Shown here piece after piece: positions 6,987-58,519 of a stretch of DNA of 64,000 nucleotides (the first letter of the stretch is position 1; every line of letters begins with the position of its first letter). A program made the translations under genes and the position numbers. Origin of the DNA: a bacterium (lineage in GTDB: Bacteria; RBG-13-66-14); assembly GCA_035528375.1 (NCBI GenBank), contig DATKYS010000051.1:1-64000 (forward strand), given 5' to 3'. The notes under the pieces are model-generated. The model did no database searches. It saw only the letters and a list, made by a program, of their open reading frames with translations, and was not told the origin of the DNA.

Positions 6987-7634
6987 ATGAGGGGAATCGT
7001 CATCCTCGTCCTGGCAGCCGCGGTCGGAGTCTGGGCCGCGGAGTGGATCACCGTGGAAGCCGACGCCGACAGCTACGTCTACTACTACAAAGATGACACC
7101 GAAGAAGAACCGCAGTACGTGGACGATAACTTCGGTGGAGAAGTAGAACTTTCCGCCTGGTACATCAATTTCTATCGGCGATACCCCTCGCTGATTCAAC
7201 GACGCTCCTTCATCTATTTCGATTTCGAGGGGATGGATCCCCAAAGTAGCGTTCTCGAAGCGATTCTGTCCCTTTACATCACCTACCTGGATTGGGGCGG
7301 TAGGTTCTGGGTGTATCGCTGCCGTGAAGCGTGGGATGAATACGAGGTCACCTGGAACGACCAACCGTGGTTTTCCGAAATTCTCGGTTCATGGGACGAT
7401 ACCTTCCCCCTTTACCAGTACAGCGACGTCGCGGAGCTCAATGCCGAAGAGATAGAACTGATAGTGGATAATCCGGACGACAATAACGGTATTATCATTT
7501 TGACCTCTGAGGACTGGAATTGTGTTGATTTCTCCTCGCGCGAAGGGGGCTTCCCGCCTCGGCTGAAACTCCTGGTCAGCGGGGCCGACGTCGTGGAGGC
7601 GAGCTGGGGGGAGATAAAGGCGGCGTTCGAGTAG
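6987..7634 (+). CDS. Secreted DNRLRE-type protein with SWG tail (copy 1)
   Basis: A 215-residue exported protein with signal peptide 1-18. It follows the DNRLRE/CBM96-like plan: ADSYVYYYK and VDDNFGG near the start, SFIYFDFEGM, the family hallmark YEVTWNDQPW, and SREGGFPPRLKLLV near the end. Such domains fold as beta-sandwiches in surface proteins and can bind carbohydrate. The C-terminus is VVEASWGEIKAAFE, a short tail shared with the next two genes and with two unrelated proteins at 56-58 kb. It is the first of three tandem paralogues, 8 bases before the next; AAAGGAGGAAAAA precedes the ATG. Molecular function is unknown. Confidence 0.85.
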   Translation: MRGIVILVLAAAVGVWAAEWITVEADADSYVYYYKDDTEEEPQYVDDNFGGEVELSAWYINFYRRYPSLIQRRSFIYFDFEGMDPQSSVLEAILSLYITYLDWGGRFWVYRCREAWDEYEVTWNDQPWFSEILGSWDDTFPLYQYSDVAELNAEEIELIVDNPDDNNGIIILTSEDWNCVDFSSREGGFPPRLKLLVSGADVVEASWGEIKAAFE

Positions 7635-7642
7635 GAGGAGAC

Positions 7643-8308
7643 ATGAACAGGATTTGGCTCGTTTGCGCGGTCTTCCTGGCCGCCGCGTCCGTCGCTCCGG
7701 CCACCGAGCAGGTCGTCAAACTGGAAACAGATGGCGACAGCTATGTTTGTAGGTTTTACGAGCCGTCAGTACCCCTTGAGTTTTACGTCGACGACAACTT
7801 CGGCGATGCATGGGAGTTACATGTATCGAACACGTACACGTACATTTCGGATCCGTGGTGGATGGAAGTGCTCGAAATGGCATACATGCACTTTGATTTC
7901 TCCGGGCTCGGCGAATACGACGGCGCGGATTTGGTCGAGGCTCAACTGGTATTCAATGCCACTGATGCTGTCGAGGGAGCGGTACTCGCCGCCAAGGTGG
8001 CCGGCCCCTGGGAGGAGATGAGCATCACCTACAGAAACCGACCGCCGCGGGGCGACAGTGTGGCCTCGTTCGACATGGTCGAGGGGTACAACTACGTGGA
8101 CCTCAATGTCGGCAAAATCGCGCCCTGGGTTGACGCGCCGGATTTGGCCTACGGCATCCAGCTTGACCATGGGGGGAATGGTAGTTGGGATAACTACGGG
8201 GTATTCTGCAGCCGGGAAACCGATTCACCACCGGAGCTCTGGCTGACCTTCTCGGAGCCCGCGGTCCAGGAATCGAGCTGGGGGGAGATTAAGGCGTCAT
8301 TCGAATAG
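7643..8308 (+). CDS. Secreted DNRLRE-type protein with SWG tail (copy 2)
   Basis: A 221-residue paralogue of the preceding gene. A signal peptide (1-20, ending APATE) precedes DGDSYVCRFY, VDDNFGDAWEL, MHFDFSGLGEYDGADLVEAQL and EMSITYRNRPP. SRETDSPPELWLTF leads into the C-terminal SSWGEIKASFE. GAGGAG lies ahead of its ATG. Close spacing to both neighbours implies one operon and local duplication. Copies 2 and 3 are closer to each other than to copy 1. Confidence 0.85.
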   Translation: MNRIWLVCAVFLAAASVAPATEQVVKLETDGDSYVCRFYEPSVPLEFYVDDNFGDAWELHVSNTYTYISDPWWMEVLEMAYMHFDFSGLGEYDGADLVEAQLVFNATDAVEGAVLAAKVAGPWEEMSITYRNRPPRGDSVASFDMVEGYNYVDLNVGKIAPWVDAPDLAYGIQLDHGGNGSWDNYGVFCSRETDSPPELWLTFSEPAVQESSWGEIKASFE

Positions 8309-8316
8309 GAGGCGAA

Positions 8317-8964
8317 ATGAACAACAGAGGTCGGCTCGTTTGCGCGGTCTTCCTGGCCGTCGCGACCACCGTCACGGCTACGGTCCAGGTCGTCCTGGAG
8401 GCCGACGGGGACAGCTACGTCAAATACTACGAAGAGTGGGAGAGCGACCCGGAGTACGCCGACGACAACTTCGGCGGCGAGCCTCTGATGTATGTGCTGG
8501 ATAACTATTACCAGTGGGGCGAGGAATTCGAGATACCCTTCATGCACTTCGATTTCTCGGGGCTCGGCGACTACGATGGCACGTATCTGGTCGGGGCGCA
8601 GCTCGTACTCCACGCCGCGTCTTACGCTAATGGTTTGCAGCAAGCCCACGCGGTGGGGGGCGCCTGGGAGGAGATGACCATCACATTCAACAACTGTCCG
8701 GGGGCGGGTGCCCTGTTGGCCTCCTTCTACATGGACGGTGGAGACAACTACGTGGACCTCGACATCGGCCCCATCGCGCCCTGGGTGGACGCGCCGGAAA
8801 CGGCCTACGGAATCCTTATCTTTGACACCGAGCAGGTGTGGGAGGACGATCCTCCGGGGACAATCTACACCCGGGAGACCGAAAACGCGCCGGAGCTTTG
8901 GTTGACCTTCTCGGGGCCCGCGGTCGAGGGGGCGAGCTGGGGGGAGATCAAGGCGGCGTTCTAG
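8317..8964 (+). CDS. Secreted DNRLRE-type protein with SWG tail (copy 3)
   Basis: A 215-residue paralogue. Signal peptide 1-21, then DGDSYVKYY, YADDNFGGEPLM, MHFDFSGLGDYDGTYLVGAQL, EMTITFNNCPG, TRETENAPELWLTFSG and the tail GASWGEIKAAF. It lies 8 bases after copy 2 with GGAGG before the ATG. Long identical segments with copy 2 suggest recent duplication. The transcript then runs into a repeat cluster without an obvious intrinsic terminator. Confidence 0.85.
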   Translation: MNNRGRLVCAVFLAVATTVTATVQVVLEADGDSYVKYYEEWESDPEYADDNFGGEPLMYVLDNYYQWGEEFEIPFMHFDFSGLGDYDGTYLVGAQLVLHAASYANGLQQAHAVGGAWEEMTITFNNCPGAGALLASFYMDGGDNYVDLDIGPIAPWVDAPETAYGILIFDTEQVWEDDPPGTIYTRETENAPELWLTFSGPAVEGASWGEIKAAF

Positions 8965-8976
8965 CGGTTTTTTCAC

Positions 8977-9240
8977 CCGCGGGCGACCGTGGACGGTCGC
9001 CCCTACGGGGGGCGCTGGATATTGACGTAGGGGCGGGTGTCCACACCCGCCCGTTTTTATCGACAAACCGCGATGATGTAGGGGCCGACCGACGGCGCGC
9101 CGTTCAGGTCGGCCCGCGGGCGACCGTGGACGGTCGCCCCTACGGTGAACTGCACGGTTCTAAATGTAGGGCGGGGACTTCAGTCCCCGCCGCTTTACCC
9201 CCCACCCTGACCCCCCCCAGAGGGGGGAGGGGATAGGGGA
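8977..9240. repeat. Intergenic palindromic repeat mosaic, cluster 2
   Basis: GCGACCGTGGACGGTCGC occurs at 8982-8999 and again near 9119-9136. GGGCGGGTGTCCACACCCGCCC occurs near 9030-9051, a GGCCGACCGACGG type near 9082-9114, a GCGGGGACTTCAGTCCCCGC type near 9172-9191, and CCCCCCAGAGGGGGGAGGGG near 9217-9235. The gap separates the DNRLRE operon from hutH in tail-to-tail arrangement. Confidence 0.85.
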
Positions 9241-9245
9241 AACCG

Positions 9246-10766
9246 TCAGTCCAGCGGGCCGATGACCCCCTCGGCGGCCGCCAGTATCGCCCCCGAGCGC
9301 ACCAACTCGGCCATCTCGTTATTGTCGGCGTAGAGCGGCCGGTCCTCGTCCAGGTGCGCCACGTGCTCCCGGACCAGCCCGTAAACGGCTTTAGTGGCCG
9401 GGGCGAACTCGGTGTCGCGGAAATCGCGCGCCTGGCAGGCGGCCATGATTTCGATTCCCAGCACGCCGGGCACGAGGTCCATTATCTGGCGCGTCTTCAG
9501 GGCGGTGGTCCAGCCCATCGAGACGAAGTCCTCCTGGTCCGCCGCGGCGGGGATGCTGCCCACGGCCGCCGGCGTCGAGAGCACCCGACACTCGCAGATC
9601 ATGGCCCCGGCGGTGTACTGGGCCAGCATCAACCCGGAGAACATCCCGCCGCCGTGGGTCAGGAACCCGGGCAGCCCCGCCGACAGCGCGGGGTTCATCA
9701 GGCGGTTGATGCGCCGCTCGGCGAGGACCGCCGCCGTCACCACGCCCATCGAGGCGTACTCCAGGGCCAGGGCCATGGGCGTGCCCTGGAAGTTGGCCCC
9801 GGCGACGACCTCGTCGTCCTCGGGGAAGAAGACCGGGTTGTCGCCGACGCCGTTGAGCTCGGTGAGGAATACCTCGCGGGCGTGGGCCAGGGCGGTGCGG
9901 GCCGGACCGGCGGACTGGGGCGTCGAACGCAGGGAGTACGCGTCCTGGACCTTTTTGCCCGGACGCATCAAAAGCGGCGACCCTTCGGTCAGCCGCCGGA
10001 CGTTTTTCGCCACCGTGATCGAGCCCCCGTGCCCCCGGACGCGGTGCAGCCTTTCGTCGTAGCCCGACATGTTGACGTTGAGGACCTCGAGGGTCATGGC
10101 GGCGGCCACGTCCTGGGTCTTGAGCCAGGTCTCCATCTCCAACAACAGAAGCGAACCCAGGCCGTTGATGAAGTTGGAGCCGTTGATGGAGGCCAGGCCG
10201 TCGCGGGCCTCGTAGGCGATGACCGGCACACCGGCCCGGCGCATCGCCTCGGCCCCGGGCAGCCGCTCGCCCCCGTAGAACGCCTCCCCCTCGCCCATCG
10301 CCACCAGCGCCATCTGACCCATGGGCGACAGGTCACCCGAGGCCCCCACGGACCCCCGGGTGCAGACCACCGGGGTCACCCCGGCGTTGAGCATGGCAGC
10401 CATGGTCTCCGGCACCTCGCGCCGGCAGCCGGAATTGCCGTGGACCAGCACGTTTATCCGGCCGGTCATCGCCGCCCGCACCCACGGCTCGGGCATGGGC
10501 TCCCCGATTCCCGCCGCGTGCGAGTAGATCAGATACCGCTGGAAATCACGGGTCTGCTCCGGCGTGAGCACCGTCTCGGAGAACTCGCCGATGCCCGTGG
10601 TCACCCCGTACATGACCTCGCGGTTTTTTATCTTGACCTCGCACATGGCCCGGCAGCGGTCCACGCGCTCCAGGGCCTCGGGGGGAATCTCCACCCGCTC
10701 GCGGCCCACCGCGACGGCCTTCAGCCGCTCGAGGGTGAGGTTCTCGCCGCTGAGGATGACGGGCAT
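9246..10766 (-). CDS. hutH: Histidine ammonia-lyase-family enzyme
   Basis: A 506-residue protein of the MIO-containing lyase family, starting at ATG 10766; the open frame extends far upstream but only as a shadow of the flavoprotein. Ala142-Ser143-Gly144 in GSVGASGDLSPMG forms the MIO cofactor, Tyr53 in MYGVTTG is the catalytic tyrosine, and SINGSNF, GDNPVFFPEDDEV and DQEDFVSMG match the core. The Glu of QED favours histidine over phenylalanine or tyrosine as substrate. Differences from typical HutH (VTTGIGEF and GRINVLVHGNSGCRRE) leave other aromatic lyases or aminomutases possible. No hutU, hutI or hutG is present, so histidine degradation is not otherwise encoded here. Confidence 0.82.
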   Translation of the reverse strand: MPVILSGENLTLERLKAVAVGRERVEIPPEALERVDRCRAMCEVKIKNREVMYGVTTGIGEFSETVLTPEQTRDFQRYLIYSHAAGIGEPMPEPWVRAAMTGRINVLVHGNSGCRREVPETMAAMLNAGVTPVVCTRGSVGASGDLSPMGQMALVAMGEGEAFYGGERLPGAEAMRRAGVPVIAYEARDGLASINGSNFINGLGSLLLLEMETWLKTQDVAAAMTLEVLNVNMSGYDERLHRVRGHGGSITVAKNVRRLTEGSPLLMRPGKKVQDAYSLRSTPQSAGPARTALAHAREVFLTELNGVGDNPVFFPEDDEVVAGANFQGTPMALALEYASMGVVTAAVLAERRINRLMNPALSAGLPGFLTHGGGMFSGLMLAQYTAGAMICECRVLSTPAAVGSIPAAADQEDFVSMGWTTALKTRQIMDLVPGVLGIEIMAACQARDFRDTEFAPATKAVYGLVREHVAHLDEDRPLYADNNEMAELVRSGAILAAAEGVIGPLD

Positions 10767-10849
10767 CGGCTCTCCTTGTGCGTCGGTTACCGGGGGATGA
10801 TACACCGAACCGGGCGTCCGCTCAAGCCCGAACGACCGCCCGCGATGTG

Positions 10850-10876
10850 AAAAACGGGGCGGCCTGCACCGCCCCG
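10850..10876 (-). terminator. Rho-independent terminator of the flavo-diiron gene
   Basis: On the minus strand CGGGGCGG (10876-10869) pairs with CCGCCCCG (10862-10855) around a six-base loop and is followed by five T residues (10854-10850). It lies 16 bases after the stop. Confidence 0.85.
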
Positions 10877-10891
10877 TGACGCGGATTTTTC

Positions 10892-12070
10892 CTATTTCAA
10901 CCCGGCTTCCCCGTGCTTTTCCGCCACGGTATCGGCCAGGCGGTCCAGGGCCTCGAAATCGGCCTTCCCGGCCAGCCCCTTGGCCAGCACCGGTTCGAGC
11001 ACCTCGACCTTCAGGTTGGGGATGAGGGAAGCCAGGGTCTCCACCGTCTTGCCGCCCCAGCCGTAGGAGCCGACTATGGAGAGGAACCGCGCCTTCGGCC
11101 GCAGCGCGTTGGCCAGAAGAGTCGCGTAGGCCGCCAGCGGGTGGGGACCGGCGAGGACCGTCGGCGTGCCGACGATTATCGTCGCGGCGTCCACCAGGGA
11201 CATCGCCAGCGCCCCGATGTCCACCGAGGCCAGATCGAAGCGCTCCACCCGCACCCCGCGCTCCGCCAGGCCCGCCGTGAGGTGATTGACCATCTCCAGG
11301 GTGCTCCCGTGCATCGAGACGAAGGGCAGCACCGCGATGTTCTTCGGCTCGCCGTTCACCCACCCGTCGTAGGCCTTGACGATGACCTCCGGCCGGGAGT
11401 GAATCGGGCCGTGGCTCGGCGCGATGAGCTTGAATTCGTAGGGCTCCAGCTTCTTCAGATTCTTCGCGATGATACCGGCGAAGGGCATCATAATCTCGGC
11501 GTAGTACCGCTTGGCCGGACCGGCCACCACCCGCTCCCCGTCGGCGTAGAGCTCGCTCGTCGCCAGGTGCGAGCCGAAGAAATCGCAACTGAAGAGGATT
11601 TTGTCCTCCTCGAGGTAGGTCACGAAGGTCTCCGGCCAGTGGACCCACGGCGTGTAGATGAACTTGAGCGTCTTGCCGCCCAGGTCCAGCGTCTCCCCGT
11701 CGGCCACCACCTTGAACCGCTCCTCCGGGACCCGCAGGAGGTCCATGAGCATCCCCTTGGCCCTCTCGGAGGTGACGAGCTTCGCGTCGGGGAACATCGC
11801 CAAAACGTCGGGGATGGAGCCGGAGTGGTCCTGCTCGGCGTGGTGGGCGACGAGGTAGTCCAGGCGCTTTACGCCCTCGAGCTGTTCGAGAAGGATGCCC
11901 CTCATCGGCGGGTCAACCGTGTCCAGGAGGACGGTCTTGTCGCGCCCGCGGACGAGGTAGGCGTTGTAACTTGTGCCGTCGGGCAGGGGGATGAGCTGGT
12001 CGAAGAGCCGGCGGTCCCAGTCCACGGCGCCGAGCCAGTGCACGTTTTCGGTAATCTTGCGCGGTTTCAT
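10892..12070 (-). CDS. fprA: A-type flavo-diiron protein (FprA family)
   Basis: A 392-residue cytoplasmic flavoprotein. Residues 1-245 form a metallo-beta-lactamase-like diiron domain: the HxExDH motif is His77-Ala-Glu79-Gln-Asp81-His82, then FSCDFFGSH and IAPSHGPI supply further ligands. From about 255 a flavodoxin domain follows (VSMHGSTLEMVNHL binding FMN phosphate, then GTPTVLAGPHP and GSYGWGGK). Family members reduce O2 to water or NO to N2O, usually in anaerobes, taking electrons from rubredoxin or F420. No rubredoxin gene is adjacent. ATG 12070 has GGGAGG upstream. The gene has its own promoter and terminator, so it is monocistronic. Confidence 0.92.
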   Translation of the reverse strand: MKPRKITENVHWLGAVDWDRRLFDQLIPLPDGTSYNAYLVRGRDKTVLLDTVDPPMRGILLEQLEGVKRLDYLVAHHAEQDHSGSIPDVLAMFPDAKLVTSERAKGMLMDLLRVPEERFKVVADGETLDLGGKTLKFIYTPWVHWPETFVTYLEEDKILFSCDFFGSHLATSELYADGERVVAGPAKRYYAEIMMPFAGIIAKNLKKLEPYEFKLIAPSHGPIHSRPEVIVKAYDGWVNGEPKNIAVLPFVSMHGSTLEMVNHLTAGLAERGVRVERFDLASVDIGALAMSLVDAATIIVGTPTVLAGPHPLAAYATLLANALRPKARFLSIVGSYGWGGKTVETLASLIPNLKVEVLEPVLAKGLAGKADFEALDRLADTVAEKHGEAGLK

Positions 12071-12111
12071 GGGCCTCCCTTGATTGAATATTTCGCTTTC
12101 GACACACCGAT

Positions 12112-12140
12112 ATTCTAGCACAGATATTCCGACTGCTCAA
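12112..12140 (-). promoter_or_regulatory. Promoter of the flavo-diiron gene
   Basis: On the minus strand TTGAGC (12140-12135) and TAGAAT (12117-12112) have a 17-base spacer, about 42 bases ahead of the start codon. Confidence 0.6.
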
Positions 12141-12199
12141 GTCGGCTATTTGCCGACCGAATCCCCCGACGGTTTTTATACGCGGTAAGGTTGAACAGC

Positions 12200-12633
12200 C
12201 GTAGGGCGGGGACTCCTTTCCCCGCCGTTTTTTTTAAGGAAGCCCTCACCCCCATCCCCTCTCCCGGAGGGAGAGGGGGGCCGCTTCGACCCTCACCCCA
12301 AGCTGCGATGATGTAGGGGCGGGTCTTTAGACCCGCCCGCGGGCCGACATGAACGGCGCGCCGTCGGTCGGCCCCTACGAGGTTGACGCGCGATTCACAC
12401 CTTAGCCGTAGGGGCGGGTGTCCACACCCGCCCGTTCGTTGCATCGGAGTGACTCAAAAGTAGGGCGGGGATTCCCATCCCCGCCGCGTTTTTTATAAGG
12501 TGGCCCTCACCCCCATCCCCTCTCCCGGAGGGAGAGGGGGACCGCTACACCCCCCTCCCCGGCCCGTAGGCAAGCCACTCCCCAAAGGGGAGAGGGGGAA
12601 TAAGGCAGACCTCCCACGGGGGGAGGGAAGCTT
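12200..12633. repeat. Intergenic palindromic repeat mosaic, cluster 3
   Basis: The 600-base divergent gap between the flavo-diiron gene and the permease is mostly repeats: a GCGGGGACTCC...CCCCGC element near 12205, CTCTCCCGGAGGGAGAG near 12260 and again near 12519, GGGCGGGTCTTTAGACCCGCCC near 12318, a GGCCGACATGAACGGCG type near 12343, GGGCGGGTGTCCACACCCGCCC near 12412, and a GCGGGGATTCCCATCCCCGC type near 12465. A boundary motif TTTATAAGG next to CCCTCACC recurs. A -10-like TATAAT at 12636-12641 follows on the plus strand. Confidence 0.85.
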
Positions 12634-12673
12634 GGTATAATCACCCGGCAATCGAGCACCTGCGGAAACCCCC

Positions 12674-13897: not shown

Positions 13898-13913
13898 GGA
13901 CGGTTTTTCCCGA

Positions 13914-14195: not shown

Positions 14196-14212
14196 ACCAT
14201 CCCCTCCGTTTT

Positions 14213-45871: not shown

Positions 45872-48511
45872 ATGAAAAAGATAGCCCTTATTTCGATCCT
45901 TCTCGTCTGCGCCGGGGCGGCCATGACACCGCAGGAGGCCGGTGGGCTCGTCATCGAGCGCGATCTCGGCGGCGTCACCGAGGCCAAGAGGGTCTACGTG
46001 TACCCCGAGAACCTCTCCGGCGGCGAGATCGAGTTCTGGCACCACTCGATCACACTTCCCGACGAGTCGGGGTACTTCGTCTTCGTGGACGATTACCCCG
46101 CGGCCAACTGGGAACACCCCGCCCGCGCCTTCTTCGTCACCGAGGACGGACGGATCACCATCTGGGACGTTTCCACGCCCCCCAAGTACCTCCAGGACGA
46201 CCTGGTCGAGCTCACCGACGGCAGCATCTACGACGGGCTCATTCACACCGAGTACCACATCCCCACCTTGGAGGAGGTCCAGCCCACCCGCGAGTACCTG
46301 GACAAGATAATCCCCCAGCCGGATGAGCGGGCCGGCGTGCGCTACGCGTTCCTCATGAGCGGCGGCGCCAACCAGGGCAACAACCACATCCGCTACTGGA
46401 ACGACATGGCCTCCATGTACTGGACGCTCATCAACATCTATGGCTACGACGAGAACGACATCTTCGTCCTGATGTCCGACGGTGACAACCCGGGCGTTGA
46501 TCGCTCCGACGGCACGAACTCGCCCCTGGACCTCGACGGCGACTCGGACGACGACTACCACGACCCCTGCACCCGGACCTACGTCTTCCAGTACTTCAAC
46601 GACCTCGAGGCCCTGTTGACGTCCGAGGACAGCCTCTTCATCTTCACCACCGACCACGGCGGGAGCGGTTCCTACCTCAACCTGTGGAACTTTGAGTCGC
46701 TCTGGGACTACGAGTTCGCCGACGAGCTGGACGACATCGCCTTCTCCCAGTGCATCATCACCATGGAGCAGTGCTACTCCGGCGGCTTCGTAGACGACGT
46801 GGACGATATACCCAACGTGGTCATCTCCACGGCCTGCTCGGCCAGTGAGTCCTCCTGGGCCATGCCTCCCAACTACTACTACGACACCTACGTGTACTTC
46901 TGGACGGCGGGCGTAAACGGTGAGTTCCCCGGCTGGCCCGTGGACATGGGCGGCGGGACGGCCGACGCCGACTCCGACGACGACGGCACCGTGACCGCGC
47001 ACGAGGCCTTCATCTACGCCGAGGCGGAGGACTTCTCATCCGAAACGCCGCAGTACTGCGACGTCTCCGGCATCGGCGAGGAAATCAGCCTCTGGGGCGG
47101 CGGGCTCGGGCCCCGCATCCGCATGACATCCTACGAGGTGCTGGGCGACGAGGGCGACGCGCTCCTGGTTCCCGGCGAGGATGCCGACATATCCCTCACC
47201 CTGAAGAACACGGGCGGCGAGACAGCCACCAATGTGGTCGCCGTCCTCTCCTCCGATGACACCGACATCGAGGTCACCGTGGACGAGATTGACTTCGGCG
47301 ACCTCGATCCCGACGAGGAGACGGAGGGGCCCAACCCCTTCGAAATTACAGTTTCCAGCTTCGCCGACGATCCCGGCGTCTACTACCTCGGCTGCGATGT
47401 CACCGCGGACGGCGGAATCCAAGAAACCTTCACCATCATGGTCACCGTGGGTTCCGAGTTCGGCTTCTTCGACGACATCGAGGACGGCGAGGGCGACTGG
47501 GCCCACTCGGGTGACGTGGACCTGTGGCACATCGAGGACTACCGCGCCCGCTCACCGGAATATTCATGGAAGTGCGGCGGCGAGGATGACGGGAACTACG
47601 AGCCCAACATGGACTGCTACCTCTACTCCCCGATGATTCTCGTCGGTCTGGAAAACCCGCAGCTCGACTTCTGGACCTTCTACAAAATCGCTCCCGGAGG
47701 CGACGGCTGCAGGCTCGAATTCGGCGACGACGCCCGTACCTGGGAGGAGCTGGAGGTGTACTACGGCACCCAGCAGGATTGGCTGCAGGAGACCTTCGAC
47801 CTCACCGACTACGCCGGCGTCATCGGCCAGTTCCGCTTCAACTTCTTCTCCAACGGTTCGACCGAGCGCGAGGGCTTCTACTTCGACGACTTCGAGGTCT
47901 CGCCGCCCGACGTGGGCATCGCGCTGGTTGATTTCACCGTCGGGTCCACCGACGCGGGAGCCCTGGTGTCCTGGACCCCGGGCGACGGCGACACCACCGT
48001 CGGATTCAGCATTTACCGCCAGGACGGCGTTCTCGTTGACTCCATGGTCCTGGCGACCGGAGACCGCAACCCGCTGGTTCCGCTGAACTCCACGCCGATT
48101 CCCGGCGGCAGCTCCAGCTACCGCTACCTGGACTCAGACGTGACCTCCGGCGGCGACTACCTCTACTACCTCAAGGCCACCGACTCCGACGGGACCCTGT
48201 CCCTCTTCGGACCGGTCGAGTTCCACTACGACGCCGAGGCCGGCTCGCGGACGACCAAGTTCGACGCGCCATTCCCGAATCCCGCCTCGGGCGAGGTGAC
48301 CTTCGCCTTCAGCCTCGCCGTTGACGGCCGGGCCTCCCTGGCGGTGTACGACCTCGCCGGGCGCCGGGTGGCCACGCTGGTGGACACCGACCTCGTCGCC
48401 GGGCGGCACGAGATAGGCTGGGACGCCTCGGGTATCGCCTCGGGCGCTTACATCATCCGCCTGGTAACCGAAGGGCGCACCCTGAACCAGCGCCTGGTCA
48501 TCAGCCGGTAG
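45872..48511 (+). CDS. Secreted C13 (legumain-type) cysteine peptidase with FlgD-like sorting domain
   Basis: An 879-residue exported protein from ATG 45872 (GGGAG ahead), with signal peptide 1-18. The caspase-like peptidase spans about 130-400: YAFLMSGGANQGNNHIRYWND, the catalytic His262 in FTTDHGGSG and Cys301 in TMEQCYSGGF, then VVISTACSASESSW. Residues about 420-540 form a CARDB-like domain (ADISLTLKNTGGETATNVVAVLS), followed by a MAM/jelly-roll-like domain (about 550-690), a fibronectin-like stretch and the C-terminal FlgD-like domain (PFPNPASGE, VYDLAGRRV, QRLVISR). It is probably an asparaginyl-type or related protease at the cell surface, like the subtilisin at 80. A strong terminator follows. 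Confidence 0.9.
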   Translation: MKKIALISILLVCAGAAMTPQEAGGLVIERDLGGVTEAKRVYVYPENLSGGEIEFWHHSITLPDESGYFVFVDDYPAANWEHPARAFFVTEDGRITIWDVSTPPKYLQDDLVELTDGSIYDGLIHTEYHIPTLEEVQPTREYLDKIIPQPDERAGVRYAFLMSGGANQGNNHIRYWNDMASMYWTLINIYGYDENDIFVLMSDGDNPGVDRSDGTNSPLDLDGDSDDDYHDPCTRTYVFQYFNDLEALLTSEDSLFIFTTDHGGSGSYLNLWNFESLWDYEFADELDDIAFSQCIITMEQCYSGGFVDDVDDIPNVVISTACSASESSWAMPPNYYYDTYVYFWTAGVNGEFPGWPVDMGGGTADADSDDDGTVTAHEAFIYAEAEDFSSETPQYCDVSGIGEEISLWGGGLGPRIRMTSYEVLGDEGDALLVPGEDADISLTLKNTGGETATNVVAVLSSDDTDIEVTVDEIDFGDLDPDEETEGPNPFEITVSSFADDPGVYYLGCDVTADGGIQETFTIMVTVGSEFGFFDDIEDGEGDWAHSGDVDLWHIEDYRARSPEYSWKCGGEDDGNYEPNMDCYLYSPMILVGLENPQLDFWTFYKIAPGGDGCRLEFGDDARTWEELEVYYGTQQDWLQETFDLTDYAGVIGQFRFNFFSNGSTEREGFYFDDFEVSPPDVGIALVDFTVGSTDAGALVSWTPGDGDTTVGFSIYRQDGVLVDSMVLATGDRNPLVPLNSTPIPGGSSSYRYLDSDVTSGGDYLYYLKATDSDGTLSLFGPVEFHYDAEAGSRTTKFDAPFPNPASGEVTFAFSLAVDGRASLAVYDLAGRRVATLVDTDLVAGRHEIGWDASGIASGAYIIRLVTEGRTLNQRLVISR

Positions 48512-51405: not shown

Positions 51406-51412
51406 CGGTTTT

Positions 51413-53308
51413 TTACCAAATCTCCTCGGTCGTCATGCGTAATTCCAGCTCCTCCCCGCCGCGCAGGACGGTGAGGGTTCGCTCGGTGCCCGGCTCGGCC
51501 GCCGACCACTCGACGAGATCCAGAGCGGTGAGGATCTCGAGAGGCACGCCGTCAAGGGCCAGGACGACGTCGCCCTCGAGGAGCCCCGCCCGCTCCGCCG
51601 GGGAATTTTCCCAGACGACGACCACCGTGCCGCCCGCCGTGGTGAATCCGAGGCGGTTGGGGGGAACGCCTTCCCCGAGACCGTCGGAGCCCACCTCGAG
51701 AATCAGCCGCCAGTCGGGGTAGTCCAGCGTCACCCGCCGGAAGCGCCGAAGAACGTCCTGCCCGATGTTCCCCAACTCCCGGCTGCGGGCCAGCGCCCCT
51801 TCCGTCTCGCCGGTCAGCACCGCCAGGGGCTCGGGGATGCTCACCGACCCCAGACGCAACTCGCCCGACTTCACCAGCCGGTGGAAGTTCGCCCCGCCGA
51901 AGCCGCTCACCAGCTGCGGCCGCCAGTCCGGATAACGCTCCTCGAGGCCGTACTCCTCCACCGTCGGGCGGTAAACGGTGGTGTAGTTCAGGTTCCCCAG
52001 GTCGAGGGCGAAGTAGCCCCGGACGCCGTCGAGCTCCGCCTCCACCGCGGGGATGCCCTCGTCCAGCCGGAGCGGCAGAATCTCGATGACGCCGGGCTCG
52101 GGCTCCGGCGGCACGTAGGTCTCCGGGTCGTAAATCGTGAGCGCGGACTCCGCGTAATCTATCTCGACCACGGTCCGGGCGAAGAGCTCGTAGCCCAGGA
52201 TTCCGCCCCATTCCCGGCCGAAGTGCCAACCGAATACGGAGAGGTCCGCCGTCGCCAGGGTCGGCTCCTCGAAGGTCAGGCCGCCGATGGTCAGGCTGTC
52301 GGCCTGCAGGATGCCGACCTCCCCCAGGCCGCCGGTCCCGACCCCCGCCCCGGTGCCGACAGTGGTGATGCCCAGTTCCTCGGCCACCGGCGTGGACAGG
52401 ACGCTCATCGTGGCCCCGCTGTCCAGAATCATCCACACCGGCTCCCCGTTCACCAGGGTCGGGACGAAGATGGCGTCGCCGGTGAACTCAACGGGCACCC
52501 GAACCCGGTCCTCACCCTCCGGGAACACCAGGCGCGCCCCGACCGGCGGGAGGAAGAGGGCCGGGTCCACCGGCTCGTCGAGGGCTACGTCTTCCATCGT
52601 CTGGTCAATCGTGAGGGGCAGCCCCGTGAGGGTGGTGTGGAAGCGGGAGGGAAGACGGAGGCCGGAGAAATCTCTGACATCCGAGCACGTCGTGACGTGG
52701 ACGATCCCGTCCAGCTCGGAGGTGATGCGGCGCAGGGAACCGTCGCCGGAGTCCAGGTGGTAGCGCCGGGGGTGGAAGGGGAGGCCGCCGGACACGGGAC
52801 CGAAGTCCAGCACGTCGCAGGGGGCGCCGTCCACATCCTCGACACCGGCCCAGGCCACGGAAAAGAGGGCCGGGTCGGGGTGACAGTAGAGGAGGGCGTC
52901 CATGACCAGAGAGGTGGTGTAATCCGCGAGCTCGACACCGGCCAGCTCCCGGACCTCGCCGTTGGAAGCGGCGATCCAGCCCCCCTCGGGCGTGATGAGC
53001 ACCAGCTCGTGCAGGGGACCGAGGGTGACCTCGCTTCTGTAGTAAATCCCCCGGATGAAGTCCCCGGCGTCGCAGGTCCCGTCGGCGTTCACCGCGGGCT
53101 TCTCCGCCGGCAGGACCACCAGGATTTCGGAAAAACCCTCCATCCCGCCCGAGGCGATGGTCCCCGAGTAGCGGATGGACTCCAGCGATTCCCAGATGGC
53201 GTCCACGCCGAGGGATTCCCGGTGCAGGGCGAGGGCGTCCTGCGCCTCCCCGGCGCCGGCGGCCATGACGAGGGACAGAACAAAGACCAGCGTGGCGATC
53301 CGGCGCAT
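51413..53308 (-). CDS. Secreted retropepsin-like protease with PDZ domain
   Basis: A 631-residue exported protein with signal peptide 1-19 (LVMAAGAGEA). After an N-terminal domain like that of the neighbouring lipoprotein (about 25-240), there is a clear retropepsin half MILDSGATMSVLSTPVAEELGI with GGILGYELFART, and a second half in which DLGN replaces DSG (FALDLGNLNYTTV), possibly inactive. From about 545 a PDZ domain follows (GFTTAGGTVVVVWENSPAERAGLLEGDVVLALDGVPL). It is the upstream partner of the lipoprotein gene. Substrate is unknown. Confidence 0.87.
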   Translation of the reverse strand: MRRIATLVFVLSLVMAAGAGEAQDALALHRESLGVDAIWESLESIRYSGTIASGGMEGFSEILVVLPAEKPAVNADGTCDAGDFIRGIYYRSEVTLGPLHELVLITPEGGWIAASNGEVRELAGVELADYTTSLVMDALLYCHPDPALFSVAWAGVEDVDGAPCDVLDFGPVSGGLPFHPRRYHLDSGDGSLRRITSELDGIVHVTTCSDVRDFSGLRLPSRFHTTLTGLPLTIDQTMEDVALDEPVDPALFLPPVGARLVFPEGEDRVRVPVEFTGDAIFVPTLVNGEPVWMILDSGATMSVLSTPVAEELGITTVGTGAGVGTGGLGEVGILQADSLTIGGLTFEEPTLATADLSVFGWHFGREWGGILGYELFARTVVEIDYAESALTIYDPETYVPPEPEPGVIEILPLRLDEGIPAVEAELDGVRGYFALDLGNLNYTTVYRPTVEEYGLEERYPDWRPQLVSGFGGANFHRLVKSGELRLGSVSIPEPLAVLTGETEGALARSRELGNIGQDVLRRFRRVTLDYPDWRLILEVGSDGLGEGVPPNRLGFTTAGGTVVVVWENSPAERAGLLEGDVVLALDGVPLEILTALDLVEWSAAEPGTERTLTVLRGGEELELRMTTEEIW

Positions 53309-53397
53309 CGGTCCGACTCCCGCGTTGACGTTTCGGTTAGATTAAAGGCGCCCCGGGGCCTTGTCAAGCTGCGCCCCGCGGCGGTAAACTCGCCTCG

Positions 53398-53913
53398 ATG
53401 GACGTCCTCATCCACATCTGCTGCGGCATCTGCATCCTCGAGCCGCTCCGGGACCTGCGCGGCGAGGGGCACGACGTGCTCGGGGTGTGGGTCAACCCGA
53501 ACATCGAGCCGGCCGCCGAGCACGACCGCCGCCTGGACGCCCTGGGGACCGTCGTCCGGGTCGAGGGGCTGCCGTTGGTGCGCCTGGACGCGCCGGAGTT
53601 TTCGCCTCCCGCGGCGGAGCCCTCCGACGAGCGCTGCGGCTATTGCTACCGCCTGCGCCTCCTCCCCACGGCCCGCCTCGCCGCCGAGTCCGGCGCCGCC
53701 TTCACCACCACACTTTTATTCTCCCGCCATCAGCGCCACGAATTGATAAAAAGCGTCGCGGAACAGGTGGCCGCCGAGACCGGGGCGGAGTTCCTCTACC
53801 GTGACTGGCGGCCGCTCTTCGCCCGGGGCCAGAGCCGGGCCCGGCGGCTCGGCATCTACCGCCAGCGCTACTGCGGCTGCCTGCCCAGCCTCGACGCCCG
53901 GCTGAAGGAGTAG
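53398..53913 (+). CDS. queH: Epoxyqueuosine reductase QueH
   Basis: A 171-residue cytoplasmic enzyme catalysing the last step to queuosine in tRNA. It has the QueH cysteine clusters: HICCGIC at the N-terminus (Cys8, Cys9, Cys12), DERCGYCYRLRL, and RYCGCLPS near the end, binding the iron-sulfur and additional metal. AAFTTTLLFSRHQRHELIK and EFLYRDWRPLF are other signatures. The N-terminal Cys-Cys-Gly-Ile-Cys replaces the more usual CCAPC. No other queuosine gene is here. Divergent from the retropepsin operon. Confidence 0.9.
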   Translation: MDVLIHICCGICILEPLRDLRGEGHDVLGVWVNPNIEPAAEHDRRLDALGTVVRVEGLPLVRLDAPEFSPPAAEPSDERCGYCYRLRLLPTARLAAESGAAFTTTLLFSRHQRHELIKSVAEQVAAETGAEFLYRDWRPLFARGQSRARRLGIYRQRYCGCLPSLDARLKE

Positions 53914-54185
53914 GGCGGGATTTTACCCCCACCGCTACCTCTACGAAATCCCCCGTATGCGCGTTGCGATGACGTAGGGGCCGACCTTTAGGTCGGCCCG
54001 TTCTTCAAAGGCAACCCTCACCCTTTATCCCGCTCCCACGGGGAGAGGGGGGCCGCTTCACCCCTCACCCCGGCTATATCCCAAACGTAGGGCGGGGATT
54101 TTAATCCCCGCCGCTTTACCCCCCACCCCAACCCGTAAGCGCGCTTCCCCCCAGAGGGGGGAGGGGACCGCGGGACGACTTCACT
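53914..54185. repeat. Intergenic palindromic repeat mosaic, cluster 10
   Basis: GGCCGACCTTTAGGTCGGCC near 53980-53999, CTCCCACGGGGAGAG near 54034-54048, a GCGGGGATTTTAATCCCCGC type near 54093-54112 and CCCCCCAGAGGGGGGAGGGG near 54149-54168 lie between queH and hicA. Confidence 0.8.
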
Positions 54186-54208
54186 TCTTCGTCCAACCGT
54201 CAACTCTT

Positions 54209-54231
54209 AAAAAAAACCGGCCGCAGGGCCG
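54209..54231 (-). terminator. Terminator of the hicBA operon
   Basis: On the minus strand CGGCC pairs with GGCCG around a CTGC loop, followed by G and eight T residues, 22 bases after the hicA stop. Confidence 0.75.
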
Positions 54232-54252
54232 TTCTCTTTTACAGGCTCTCGT

Positions 54253-54438
54253 TCAAGGTTGTGGAATCCCCAGGTCGGCGCATATCTTCTTCGCCAATGT
54301 ATCGCTGATCCCGGTGTGCCTGGGGACCGTGGACATCTTTCCCGTCGTCGCATTCACGAATACGCTGTGCTTACCACCCTCGCGTTTCAGAAGGCACCCG
54401 GACCCGATCAAATGCTGGATCAGATCCCGGCGTTTCAT
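54253..54438 (-). CDS. hicA: HicA-type mRNA interferase toxin
   Basis: A 61-residue double-stranded-RNA-binding-fold protein: KRRDLIQHLIGSGCLLKREGGKHSVFVN contains the catalytic histidine (GGKH, about residue 23) that cleaves mRNA. The rest (STVPRHTGISDTLAKKICADLGI) is standard. It overlaps the end of hicB by 4 bases. Gene order is antitoxin first, which is one of the two arrangements known. Confidence 0.92.
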   Translation of the reverse strand: MKRRDLIQHLIGSGCLLKREGGKHSVFVNATTGKMSTVPRHTGISDTLAKKICADLGIPQP

Positions 54439-54656
54439 GCCGTCAGCTGCAAGGGTTCCCGGATAACCTCAGTATTCTCCAATCGTTTTTCCGCTTCCTC
54501 CCGGTAGCACTCCAGCAACAGCCGGACCGCGTCGAGAAGATTCTCCCGGGCCTCTTCGAGGGTCGCGCCCTGGGTGTTCGCGCCGGGAAGCTCTTCCACG
54601 AAGGCGATATAGCCTTCCGGCACTTTCTGAAAAACAGCGGTCAGCTGCACTTTCAT
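54435..54656 (-). CDS. hicB: HicB-type antitoxin
   Basis: Starting at ATG 54656 (GGAG a few bases ahead) this is 73 residues. It has the partial RNase H fold of HicB: KVQLTAVFQKVPEGYIAFVEELPGANTQGATLEEARENLLDAVRLLLECY. There is no separate DNA-binding domain at the C-terminus, so autoregulation may be indirect. A TATACT -10 at 54693-54698 (minus strand) lies ahead without a clear -35. A longer frame to 54704 would cover that -10. Confidence 0.9.
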   Translation of the reverse strand: MKVQLTAVFQKVPEGYIAFVEELPGANTQGATLEEARENLLDAVRLLLECYREEAEKRLENTEVIREPLQLTA

Positions 54657-54726
54657 CTCCGCTCCTCCATCCGCCGGACGAAACCTGGGTACAGTATAGC
54701 TCATTTTTCAACCAAGCGGCTGGTTT

Positions 54727-54800
54727 TACCCCTCACCCTAGCCCGTAGGCGAGCCTCCCCCCAAAGGGGGGAGGGGACAAGCGACCCTCACCCCAGCCCG
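54727..54800. repeat. Repeat tract between hicB and gpsA
   Basis: A CCCTCACCCTAGCCCGTAGGCGAGCC tract and CCCCAAAGGGGGGAGGGG occupy this divergent gap. Confidence 0.6.
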
Positions 54801-54820
54801 TTCCGACAAACGGCCCCGGT

Positions 54821-54849
54821 TTGACTCACCGCGGGGCGGGGGCTATAAT
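54821..54849 (+). promoter_or_regulatory. Promoter of gpsA
   Basis: TTGACT (54821-54826), a 17-base spacer and a perfect TATAAT (54844-54849). The start codon is 30 bases on. Confidence 0.85.
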
Positions 54850-54879
54850 GCCCCGGCGGTCAGCCTTCGCGGGGGATTT

Positions 54880-55887
54880 GTGAAACTGCCCGATAAAATC
54901 GCCGTCATGGGGGCCGGGAGCTGGGGCACCGCCCTGGCCATCGCCTTCGACTACGCGGGCGTCCCGGTCACCCTCTGGGCCCACACACCCGCCCTGGCCG
55001 CCAAACTCTCCCTGCACCGGGAGAACGTGGACTACCTCCCCGGCGCTCGGCTGCCCGATTCGATAAAAATCACCGATGACATCGCCGAGGCGGCCCGCGG
55101 CGCGGGGACGGTCTTCTCCATGGGGCCGACCCAGTTCGCCCGCGACGTCATCACCCGCTTCAAACCGTACCTCACCAAGGGCGCCATCGTCGTCAACGCC
55201 GCCAAGGGCATCGAGCGCACCAGCCACCAGACGATGACCGAGCTGGCCGAGGAGGTGCTCCCCGACCGGTTCCACAAGCGGCTGAGCGTGCTCTCGGGGC
55301 CGAACTTCGCCGAGGAGGTGGCCCAGGGGCTCCCCGCCGCCGCCGTCATCGCCAGCCGCTCCAAGGCCGCCGCCCGTTGGATCCAGCAGAAGCTATCCTC
55401 CGACCGCCTCCGCCTCTACACCTCCAACGACCCCATCGGCGCCGACATCGGCGGCTCGATGAAGAACATCTTCGCCATCGCCGCCGGGGCCATAGACGCC
55501 CTGGGGCTGGGGGACAACGCCCGCGCCGCGCTCATCACCCGCGCCCTCGTCGAGATAGCCCGCCTGGGCAAGGCCGTCAGCGCCAAGGGAAAAACCTTCA
55601 AGGGGCTCTCCGGCCTGGGCGACCTCCTCCTCTCCTGCTCCAGCCCCAAGAGCCGCAACTACAACGTGGGCTACCGCCTGGGGCGGGGGGAGAGCCTGCG
55701 GGACATCCTGGCCGACATGGTCCACGTCGCCGAGGGTGTGCCCACCACCGTTGCCGCCACGGCCCTCGCCGAGCGCCACAAAATCGAGCTCCCCATCACC
55801 GCCGAGGTCTTCCGGATGCTATACGGGGAGAAGAGCCCCGCCGACTGCGTCCGCGACCTGATGACCCGGGAGCTCAAGCCCGAGTAG
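54880..55887 (+). CDS. gpsA: NAD(P)+-dependent glycerol-3-phosphate dehydrogenase
   Basis: A 335-residue cytoplasmic enzyme making sn-glycerol-3-phosphate for phospholipid synthesis. The Rossmann motif VMGAGSWGTALA starts at residue 9, followed by the conserved VNAAKGIE, LSGPNFAEEVA and GGSMKNIFAIAAG with the catalytic lysine. GLSGLGDLLLSC and LGRGE are further landmarks. It starts at GTG 54880 with GGGGGA upstream. It stands alone with its own promoter. Confidence 0.96.
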   Translation: MKLPDKIAVMGAGSWGTALAIAFDYAGVPVTLWAHTPALAAKLSLHRENVDYLPGARLPDSIKITDDIAEAARGAGTVFSMGPTQFARDVITRFKPYLTKGAIVVNAAKGIERTSHQTMTELAEEVLPDRFHKRLSVLSGPNFAEEVAQGLPAAAVIASRSKAAARWIQQKLSSDRLRLYTSNDPIGADIGGSMKNIFAIAAGAIDALGLGDNARAALITRALVEIARLGKAVSAKGKTFKGLSGLGDLLLSCSSPKSRNYNVGYRLGRGESLRDILADMVHVAEGVPTTVAATALAERHKIELPITAEVFRMLYGEKSPADCVRDLMTRELKPE

Positions 55888-55902
55888 TCGCGACCTTTCC
55901 CT

Positions 55903-56250
55903 AAATGTAGGGCGGGGACTTCTGTCCCCGCCGCCGGCCCCGACCCTCACCCCGGCCCGTCGGCGAGCCGCTCCCTAGAAGGGAGAGGGGGCCGTCGCAC
56001 CCTTTATCCGCGCCTGCGATAACGTAGGGCGGCCCCTCTGCGGGCCGCCGCGAATTGCAATGACGTAGGGGCCGACCGACGGCGCGCCGTTCAGGTCGGC
56101 CCGTCTCGACATGGTGCCCGTAGGGCGGGGAACCGAGAGAAGCGAGCTATGCGAAGCAAATCCTTTCCCCGCCGTTTTCACGTTCCCGGCCCCGACCCTC
56201 ACCCTATCCCTCTCCCTAAAAGGGAGAGGGGGTCGTCCGCGGGCGTCTTT
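55903..56250. repeat. Intergenic palindromic repeat mosaic, cluster 11
   Basis: A GCGGGGACTTCTGTCCCCGC type near 55911-55930, CTCCCTAGAAGGGAGAG near 55972-55988, a GTAGGGCGGCCCCTCTGCGGGCCGCC type near 56023-56049, a GGCCGACCGACGGCG type near 56069-56101, a long-loop element near 56121-56172 and CTCCCTAAAAGGGAGAG near 56212-56228 fill the gap. Confidence 0.8.
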
Positions 56251-56271
56251 TTGTTCCCCCCGAGTATCGGA

Positions 56272-57375
56272 TTAAAACTCCGCCTTGACGGCGCCCCAAC
56301 TCGTCTGCACCACGTTGAGCTCCTCGGTGGTAAAGCTCCAGACGAAGTCGTATCTCATCTCACGACCGGTACGATCCGCCAGGCAACCGTCCACGGTGCA
56401 GGTGATGAGGTCCACCGGCAGGTCCTCGTCGGGGGTGAATGTGCAGACGACATCGGTCCAGTCGCTGTCATCAATCACGAGCGTTCCCGGAATCTCGCCC
56501 GCGGGCCGGGGATTACAGCTCGTCGAGAGGGAAGACGAACCGGCGCGCAGGGCTCTGTCTCCCGATCGCCGCGACTGGTCCTCCGCCGTGAAGACTATCG
56601 TGGAAACTTCAATTCCAAACATCCCGCTGCAACAGTGGAACACGATGTCCCTGCCCACCGGCACGTCGGATTCCCCGTCATCGGGGTCCATGCCCTCCAC
56701 CCAAGGTCGGGGGGAGGTATCGTACCCTATCGCGAATTTGATGGCGTTGTTGTAGAGCACCCAGCCGTCGCCGTCCCAAAAGTGGTAGTCACCGGGGCAC
56801 AGGTTGACGGCGGCAGCGAAGCACCATTCACTGACCGCCACCATGTCGGTGCCGTTTTCCAGGTCGGCGATCCAGATAGCGCCGCTCTCCGTCGAGATGT
56901 ACTGCCAGTAGTTGATGTGGGAAATGCTCGAAACGCCGTCCATGATGCCCCAGTAATCTTCGTAATCGCCCAGGCGGGTGCTGGAGTGATAGGTGTAGCC
57001 GCGGGTCAGGGGGCAGTAGTCAGGGTCGCTGGCGTAACGGCCGGCGATGCCCCAGCTGCCCGAGTCGTGAGCGAAGCAGCAGGATACGACGCCGCCGTAG
57101 TAGTCTAAGTAGTCGGCCAGGTTATTCCCGAAGGCCGTGGGGTCGTCGTAGGCGTAGTTGCTCCACGTGAAGACGACGCCGTAATCGTTCAGGGTGTCCA
57201 TGCTGGGGGTGGTCGTGGTGCAGTCCAGGAATGTAACGCTGTCGTAGTAGGGGTCGCCGCCGATGTAGGTTTGGGCGTCCGAGGTTGCGCCGGGGTCGGT
57301 GTGGCAGATCAAGATGTCGTACCGCCCCGCGATAGCCGCGGTAACGACCACCAAGACTAACAACGCTCTTCGCAT
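56272..57375 (-). CDS. Secreted protein with Ig-like (Big_5) domain and SWG tail (copy 1)
   Basis: A 367-residue exported protein, signal peptide 1-17 (LVLVVVTAAIAG). Residues 17-220 may form a Rossmann-like flavodoxin/GATase-type fold (DILICHTDPGATSD, DYGVVFTWSNYAYDDP), reminiscent of ThuA-like domains. Residues about 225-350 contain a SbsA/Big_5 Ig-like domain (GMDPDDGESDVPVGRDIVFHC...CTFTPDEDLPVDLITCTVDG). It ends WSFTTEELNVVQTSWGAVKAEF. The last 11 residues share the SWG-x-(I/V)KA-x-F tail of the DNRLRE proteins at 7-9 kb. A paralogue lies upstream, 34 bases away. Confidence 0.8.
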   Translation of the reverse strand: MRRALLVLVVVTAAIAGRYDILICHTDPGATSDAQTYIGGDPYYDSVTFLDCTTTTPSMDTLNDYGVVFTWSNYAYDDPTAFGNNLADYLDYYGGVVSCCFAHDSGSWGIAGRYASDPDYCPLTRGYTYHSSTRLGDYEDYWGIMDGVSSISHINYWQYISTESGAIWIADLENGTDMVAVSEWCFAAAVNLCPGDYHFWDGDGWVLYNNAIKFAIGYDTSPRPWVEGMDPDDGESDVPVGRDIVFHCCSGMFGIEVSTIVFTAEDQSRRSGDRALRAGSSSLSTSCNPRPAGEIPGTLVIDDSDWTDVVCTFTPDEDLPVDLITCTVDGCLADRTGREMRYDFVWSFTTEELNVVQTSWGAVKAEF

Positions 57376-57409
57376 TTTCTCCTCCTTTGGTTGAACGTTC
57401 CCGGATTAT

Positions 57410-58519
57410 TTAAAACTCCGCCTTGATGGCCCCCCAACTCGTCTGCACCACGTTGAGCTCCTCGGTGGTAAAGCTCCAGACGAAGTCCTCCTCCATCTCG
57501 ATATCGTAGCGGTTGGCCAGGCCGGCGGCGACGGTGCAGGTGATGGCGTCGTCGCCGTTCAGCGGATCGGCGGGGGTGAAGGTGCAGACGACATCCCTGG
57601 GGTCGGTGTCGTCCAGGTCCAGGTCGCCGGCGATCGAGCGGGCGGACTCGAAGTTGGCGCTGATGGCGGCGCTGGCGCTCACCGCACGGCCACCGGAGAG
57701 GGTGGTGTCGCGGGCGGTGAAGTCAATCGTATCCAGGTCAATGGCGAAGAAGTCATCCACGCAGTGAAAGACGATGTTGGTGTCCACCGGCACGCCGGTG
57801 TCCCCGTCGTCGGGGTCCATGCCGGTCACGTAAGGCGGATCATTCGGTATCCAGTAGTTCGTGAGCACGTTCTCCCACAGTTGCTGCTCCTGGCCGCCGC
57901 CGATGAAGCTCTCATACAGGCCGGTGACGACACCCATGCCGTTCTCCGCCTCCAGAATACCAGCCTGGCCGGCGGTCTCGGTCGCGGTCCAACCGGTCAC
58001 CGGGTGAGCGGTGGTCCACGGGTAGCGGTGGTGATAGACGCTTAAGCCCCAGCCGTGGTCGTCCAGTGTCCACGAGGTGATGCCATAGGTGAAGGCGTGG
58101 CCCAGATCCCAGCAGTAGTGGGACGCGGTGAAGACCATCGAGGTCGGGTTGCCGACCCCCATGGCCGTCTCGAGGGCGTCGTTGTAGCTGCCGTGCGCGT
58201 ACCAGTCGAAGTAGTGCAGCTTTGCGAAGTCGTTGTACCAGTTCGTCAGGGCGGTGTAGTCGCTGGTGGTGTAGCTGGTGTAGTTAATTGCGGCGACGAT
58301 GCACATATCCCAGTCGCCGCCTGTCAGGCTGGATATGAAGGTGGACCAGGTGCTGCCATCGTAGTACGTGGCGGAGCAACTCGGCCACAGGTCGCTTATC
58401 GCGCTGGAGAGGTAGCTGCCGCCGTACGCAGTGTCGTACTTGACGATTATGTTGTCGGGGTCCTGCCCCATCGAAGCCAGTACCAACAGAGACCACAGTA
58501 TTATCAACGCCTTGCGCAT
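57410..58519 (-). CDS. Secreted protein with Ig-like (Big_5) domain and SWG tail (copy 2)
   Basis: A 369-residue paralogue of the next gene downstream. Signal peptide 1-17. The first 220 residues again have a flavodoxin-like pattern (NIIVKYDTAYGGSYLSS, WDMCIVAAINYTSY). The Ig-like domain (GMDPDDGDTGVPVDTNIVFHCVDDFF, CTFTPADPLNGDDAITCTVAAG) is well conserved between the copies, and the end TTEELNVVQTSWGAIKAEF is almost identical. The N-terminal parts diverge more, so selection differs between the two halves. It is first in a two-gene operon. Confidence 0.8.
   Translation of the reverse strand: MRKALIILWSLLVLASMGQDPDNIIVKYDTAYGGSYLSSAISDLWPSCSATYYDGSTWSTFISSLTGGDWDMCIVAAINYTSYTTSDYTALTNWYNDFAKLHYFDWYAHGSYNDALETAMGVGNPTSMVFTASHYCWDLGHAFTYGITSWTLDDHGWGLSVYHHRYPWTTAHPVTGWTATETAGQAGILEAENGMGVVTGLYESFIGGGQEQQLWENVLTNYWIPNDPPYVTGMDPDDGDTGVPVDTNIVFHCVDDFFAIDLDTIDFTARDTTLSGGRAVSASAAISANFESARSIAGDLDLDDTDPRDVVCTFTPADPLNGDDAITCTVAAGLANRYDIEMEEDFVWSFTTEELNVVQTSWGAIKAEF

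Follow-up and report, generated by a model that had tools for sequence, protein, structure and literature searches.

Why do five secreted proteins, encoded at two distant loci on one contig, end in nearly the same ten residues? The question arises from a stretch of 64,000 nucleotides (positions 1 to 64,000 of contig DATKYS010000051.1; "the window"), which is contig C51 of a genome of Candidatus Coatesbacteria (2.63 Mb, 144 contigs; the host genome, G000; other genomes, contigs and loci are labelled G, C and L below). The phylum was assigned from a protein search, in which a MAG of Candidatus Coatesbacteria was the one named relative. An earlier model-made annotation from the letters alone, the sequence-only reading, had noticed the shared C-terminus, SWG followed closely by a lysine and an aromatic residue, had assigned signal peptides and different main domains to its five carriers, and had proposed a sorting role. 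We call this end the WG tail. It very probably serves as a shared sorting or localisation tag. For the full statement that it is a short C-terminal sorting tag read by the type IX secretion system (T9SS) translocon or by a shuttle of the PorV/PorQ family, we put the probability at roughly 0.5.

Reading of the open reading frames (ORFs) of the window bore out the first three claims. All five ends are exactly as described, each protein begins with a signal peptide, and the two immunoglobulin (Ig)-domain proteins are alike but unrelated to the other three. These three, on the plus strand, are secreted DNRLRE/CBM96 proteins of 215, 221 and 215 residues at 6987..7634, 7643..8308 and 8317..8964, all with profile matches (for the first, NF033679 with 56.7 bits and PF24517 with 33.5 bits). 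They end in SWGEIKAAFE, SWGEIKASFE and SWGEIKAAF, the tails with their stop codons occupying 7602..7634, 8276..8308 and 8935..8964 (pattern matches 7605-7634, 8279-8308 and 8938-8964). On the minus strand, a secreted protein of 367 residues with a C-terminal Big_5-like Ig domain (56272..57375; 18 bits, below the Big_5 cut-off of 23.6) ends in SWGAVKAEF (56272..56301), and a secreted Big_5 Ig protein of 369 residues (57410..58519; 29 bits) ends in SWGAIKAEF (57410..57439); both of these tails also match the pattern. The CBM96 match stops at residues 190, 202 and 197 of the three plus-strand proteins, where positions 157, 163 and 163 of the 164 in the profile are reached, and the Big_5 match stops at residues 350 and 352 of the two Ig proteins. 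This leaves 17-25 residues beyond the domain match in all five, a short linker and then, last, the tail.

Occurrence of the tail in the host genome

The sequence-only reading had suggested a scan of the complete genome and its relatives, and had named three outcomes that would speak against a signal: a tail confined to close paralogues, one as frequent inside proteins as at their ends, and one carried by cytoplasmic proteins. None of the three was found, and terminal matches proved numerous in the host and in its relatives. The strict pattern, W-G-x-[IV]-K-[AS]-x-F followed by 0-3 codons and a stop, matched at 28 distinct places in the host genome and the broader pattern (V-x-E-x-[ST]-W-G-x-[IVL]-K-[AS]-x-[FY]) at 52 distinct gene ends, with no match in the reversed control in either case; about 3e-4 terminal matches are expected from composition alone in a genome of this size. 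When the core motif was searched without requiring a stop, all 41 host matches had one within 0-3 codons and none was internal. Genome-wide counts come from DNA patterns, by which variant tails such as SWGxIKALD and SFGCIKARYR are undercounted. Since the codons under the constant tail residues vary freely in the host genome, selection acts on the tail at the protein level, and a DNA-level repeat or cassette is ruled out.

The proteins that carry the tail are exported and diverse. Tail genes were read from the surrounding DNA, and signal peptides were called by a simple hydrophobicity test on uncut 5' ends only. In the host, signal peptides were found on 46 of 51 tail proteins against 48 of 161 other ORFs, the enrichment that the sequence-only reading had asked about, and the corresponding values were 22/23 against 23/72 in G038, a genome outside the host phylum, 8/8 against 4/26 in G158 and 6/6 against 5/17 in G013. 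Four of the host tail proteins without a signal peptide regain one if an in-frame TGA is read through. The 53 host tail proteins that were clustered fall into 26 architectures (70% coverage of the longer protein), while the 23 of G038 form 21 families even by single linkage. A looser single-linkage clustering joins 39 of 52 host tail proteins, mainly because Ig-type and other domains recur between architectures. The carriers bear dozens of unrelated domains, among them CBM96, Big_5, lamin-tail (LTD), NHL propeller, right-handed beta-helix and temptin/TSP3, a repertoire that is that of surface and extracellular proteins. The WG tail is thus constrained as protein sequence, comprises about 10-13 residues after a short linker and always comes last, on dozens of unrelated Sec-exported proteins per genome.

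The tails also differ in an ordered way. Across 55 host tails the consensus is V(51) E/V(31) E(29) T(27) [ST](55) W(53) G(55) x [IVL](55) K(55) A(45) x [FY](52), and in G038 it is V-P-x-E-x-x-S-W-G-x-[VLI]-K-[AGS]-L-[FY]-R. The end residues are x[FY] in the host's own genus, L[DE] in G004 and G006, which are genera within the host's own family, and L[FY]R in G038, G158 and G013; 0-4 residues follow the motif. The ends are the same across different proteins of one lineage but differ from lineage to lineage. This is what one shared reader per lineage, coevolving with its clients, would give, and it is hard to account for by separate domain functions. Terminal position, Sec-exported carriers with many unrelated domains, and lineage-uniform ends are all traits of a sorting signal, as the sequence-only reading had held; the sorting role itself is what we infer from them.

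Two observations concern the tail genes as such. A segment of 20 kb (L046, G000:C100:1-19999) holds eight related WG-tail genes with LY-type ends, whose N-terminal domain is common while an extra Ig domain is present or not, which looks like domain shuffling. At L032:9366-9581 on the minus strand, a tail-bearing frame without signal peptide lies amid intact tail genes and is probably a frameshift or a decayed copy.

Type IX secretion in the same genomes

Three other secreted proteins of the window share FlgD-like ends of the form RRLV(I/L)(A/S)R, in which the sequence-only reading had seen a second sorting code. The guess of two codes was right. The second consists of T9SS type A sorting domains, as each of the three proteins matches TIGR04183 with 35-47 bits (cut-off 23). 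They are a subtilase-like protein at 80..2146 on the plus strand (domain at residues 611-685, 37.7 bits), a protein at 2633..4234 on the minus strand (residues 455-531, 47.3 bits; genome match G000:C51:2642-2875) and a protein with choice-of-anchor-J-like and FnIII-like regions at 45872..48511 on the plus strand (residues 801-877, 35.4 bits). The host genome has 48 type A domain matches and 14 PorV/PorQ-family matches. It also encodes SprA (G000:C132, L165:7701-13382; TIGR04189 335.9 bits, cut-off 200) and PorU (G000:C104, L167:5929-8682; NF033707 251.6 bits), the latter cut by the contig end and sharing its contig with a PorV-family gene. With these components, T9SS in Coatesbacteria is apparently working, in contrast to a review in which proteins with C-terminal sorting domains (CTDs) are confined to Bacteroidota. 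SprA, PorU and the PorV family on the one hand and Sec signal peptides on the tail proteins on the other, with their exceptions explained, are what T9SS cargo calls for.

Tail enrichment is found only where T9SS occurs. Within the host genus, 38-59 raw matches were counted per genome against 0-3 in the control. In a second phylum, that of G038 and its relatives, tails occur in nearly all of about 78 genomes, the highest count being 53 matches; 14 were counted in G158, which belongs to neither of the two main tail phyla. Beyond the host phylum, the tail is spread through one whole phylum and common in another. SprA was sought in 127 genomes, and the tail-rich lineages tested all have SprA and/or dozens of type A domains, so that the co-occurrence with a specific secretion gene envisaged by the sequence-only reading was indeed observed. 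SprA is present in every tail-rich lineage, with misses in single genomes (G005, G013, G053, G054, G083, G100 and G105), several of them incomplete. Outside the two main tail phyla, SprA is present in 18 of 66 genomes, including all five with validated tails (hypergeometric P ~1e-3, a value weakened by the relatedness of the genomes and by the fact that only part of the weak pattern matches in other genomes were read).

A further case is a small secreted FnIII-like protein, which bears the sole convincing tail in each of G014, G020, G137 and G143. Three of its sequences were aligned, and two are 35% and 27% identical to the first. The end TWGSIKAMFR is identical in all four lineages (10/10) and is by far the best-conserved part of the protein. 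The domain itself has matches in L114, L115 and L118 to proteins whose ends are type A-like, and the FnIII-like region of the window protein at 45872-48511 matches the single-copy tail protein of G014 with an E value of 1e-6. By coordinate comparison, this FnIII-like domain is found immediately ahead of the type A domain in numerous T9SS cargo proteins (for example G009:C13, G009:C14, G090:C1 and G020:C38). The WG tail of the small protein holds the place that the type A domain holds elsewhere. CBM96 behaves similarly: it precedes WG tails in Coatesbacteria, and in G137 it is part of a protein whose end is type A-like. No use was made of a weak similarity (E 0.16) between the four-lineage protein and the N-terminal domain of PorU.

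The gene neighbourhood adds to the positional evidence. In G014 a PorD gene of the same strand ends 68 nt before the tail gene begins, and a PorV/PorQ-like gene lies next to them; this PorD scores 90 bits with NF052317, below the cut-off of 170, and 88.8 bits with DUF4835, above the Pfam cut-off. PorD belongs to the extended T9SS translocon (PMC10994853). The tail gene of G143 is near a PorQ-like gene (NF033709 92 bits, cut-off 90), and no Por-type neighbour was seen at the tail genes of G020 and G137.

Possible readers of the tail

The evidence can be read as follows. Tail proteins would first be exported by Sec; the tag, W-G-x-I-K-x-x-F/Y, would then be read in the periplasm by a common receptor, likeliest the T9SS translocon or one of the many PorV/PorQ-family shuttle barrels, and this receptor would deliver the protein to the cell surface or fix it there. 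T9SS is the best candidate because of the co-occurrence, the position of the tail and the many spare PorV-family barrels, and the link thus rests on phylogenetic and positional evidence; whether T9SS or its PorV-type shuttles are in fact the readers we regard as evenly balanced. It is rather probable, in broader terms, that the tail is a signal of about ten residues present in at least three phylum-level lineages, which forms either the shortest class of T9SS signals or a separate code for surface delivery beside T9SS. In the former case the WG tail would be a fourth, very short class next to the type A, B and C domains of 70-100 residues.

Comparison with known signals places the tail closest to the type A domain (TIGR04183/PF18962), which is likewise C-terminal, occurs on many unrelated Sec-exported proteins of the same genomes and holds the same position next to shared domains. 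The type A domain, however, is folded, Ig-like and about 70-100 residues long, whereas the WG tail has about ten residues of unrelated sequence, and the tail proteins tested did not match TIGR04183. A signal this short is plausible in view of what is known of type A CTDs, which are reported to have a conserved lysine near the end and an important extreme C-terminus, to tolerate C-terminal extensions but not replacement and, in HBP35, to have the targeting signal in the last 22 residues (PMC11285876). One T9SS can read several unrelated signals, as type B and C CTDs exemplify; three signal types have been reviewed, all of them long (PMC10202324). Different types use different shuttle barrels, which for type B are PorP-like or otherwise specialised (PMC9143113, PMC12618676). 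Type B and C CTDs have about 100 residues or more, unlike the WG tail, and the NCBIfam models for them did not match the tail proteins tested. As short C-terminal motifs on dozens of secreted proteins that were found by genome-wide counting of tails, PEP-CTERM/exosortase, GlyGly-CTERM/rhombosortase and MYXO-CTERM also resemble it. A transmembrane helix and a basic terminus are essential to these signals, and both are missing from the WG tail. Exosortase (PF09721) is absent from G000-G003, from G038 and from most tail genomes, and is ruled out as processing enzyme by its absence from the host's own genus. LPXTG sortase signals are C-terminal sorting motifs as well, but, compared at the level of sequence, the WG tail is not LPXTG-like, and its motif is followed by neither a hydrophobic stretch nor a basic end.

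Several points weigh against T9SS as the reader. Known T9SS signals are folded domains, and no receptor for the tail has been identified. PorD adjacency is seen in one of the four lineages of the small FnIII-like protein, PorV-family adjacency is weak evidence because each genome has 10-18 such genes, and no tail gene lies near the host SprA/PorV loci examined. G005 and G013 (70% and 78% complete) yielded no SprA, yet have 38 and 36 type A domains, and SprA occurs in at least 13 lineages for which no tail was validated, so that T9SS is not sufficient and at best necessary. The co-occurrence is confounded by a possible common ancestry of T9SS and the tail phyla (FCB-type lineages). Finally, lipoproteins are unusual as T9SS cargo, and a clear lipobox is present in two host tail proteins and possible in a third, all of one family of about 185 residues; these predicted small lipoproteins (187, 188 and 181 residues; L036:5615-6755, plus strand, and L053:1216-1761, minus strand) have N-termini that match, or nearly match, those of lipid-anchored proteins.

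The same lipoproteins would fit a tail that anchors rather than exports, docking non-covalently or via its invariant lysine on a surface receptor, for instance a PorP/PorV-like barrel or a scaffold protein, after export by another route. The prevalence of carbohydrate-binding, propeller, lamin-tail and beta-helix domains, the shortness of the tail behind its linker and end residues that fit a lineage-specific receptor all agree with this. We nevertheless consider it unlikely, as on related proteins an export signal stands where the tail does, and no partner family of receptors or scaffolds was found for the tail. Lipoproteins would also be at home with a periplasmic address, that is, a peptide to which a chaperone, a retention factor or a protease that reads C-termini would dock (as to a PDZ ligand or a C-terminal degron), the more so as short C-terminal peptides with an aromatic end are typical ligands of PDZ domains and tail proteases. 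Unlike in PDZ ligands, however, the end residue changes from F to D/E to R by lineage and 0-4 extra residues are tolerated; the conserved core, W-G-x-I-K, is internal, and the cargo domains look extracellular, which makes a periplasmic address improbable.

Still less credible is an amphipathic helix that holds the protein at the outer membrane without a protein receptor. On a short helix, W, I/V/L and F/Y (0, +3 and +7) and K (+4) can come to lie on one face, but the invariant Gly and Lys and the 10/10 identity in four lineages are too specific for lipid binding; two AlphaFold runs (one sequence; three sequences) gave a mean pLDDT of about 30-35 and no structural information. That a few paralogous families merely inherited the same end can scarcely be entertained. 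Several tail genes do stand in tandem paralogue clusters (C4, C20, C100), but the family counts given above for G038 and the host, together with the spread over at least three phylum-level lineages, argue against common descent as the whole explanation, and pure paralogy is ruled out by these counts. The shared sorting tag, terminal on many unrelated exported proteins and never internal in the host, therefore remains our preferred reading.

Candidate selenoproteins and the meaning of the tail

The in-frame TGA codons among the tail genes deserve separate mention. In several tail proteins from three paralogous families in at least four genomes, a single in-frame TGA stands at a shared position (GG-U-G....GL(V/I)EFDL). 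About 20 nt further 3' lies a hairpin, TTGGTCGAGTTCGACC(T)AA, whose arms change in a compensatory way, from GGTC..GACC to GATC..GATC. The folding energy of the short segments alone is not unusual (z ~-1), and the case rests on conservation and covariation instead. To these belong secreted CBM96 proteins with WG tails (L160/L040, G000:C48:10137-10532 and 10979-11362, minus strand; L147, L154, L151 and L164), in which the TGA is conserved and the hairpin is palindromic; they may form a family of secreted selenoproteins distinct from the usual redox families. Two further host genes gain a signal peptide only when the TGA is read through: one near position 6644 of L048 (plus strand, G000:C119) encodes the thioredoxin-like UxxC site SW-U-GYC and has a strong hairpin (z -3.6), and the other, near 3900 of L031 (minus strand, G000:C11), reads CGG-U. 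A tRNA-Sec gene with anticodon tca lies at L038:5509-5606 (plus strand, G000:C36), about 95 nt upstream of a tail-protein gene, and supports selenocysteine decoding in the Coatesbacteria genome. The TGA-containing tail proteins are thus probable secreted selenoproteins bearing the WG tail.

C-terminal sorting signals are known as a kind, while the WG tail itself is undescribed: NCBIfam and Pfam held no tail model for the proteins tested, and a literature search returned no paper on a WGxxK/WGxIK tail. If the sorting role is correct, a short and portable signal would be added to the known bacterial sorting codes, and very many unannotated proteins of uncultured phyla could be labelled as surface or secreted proteins. 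If T9SS reads the tail, it would offer a minimal signal for the study of cargo recognition by translocon and shuttles, useful because the known signals are whole folded domains. T9SS secretomes based on TIGR04183 only would then be undercounted, in the host about twofold (48 type A domains versus some 50 tails).

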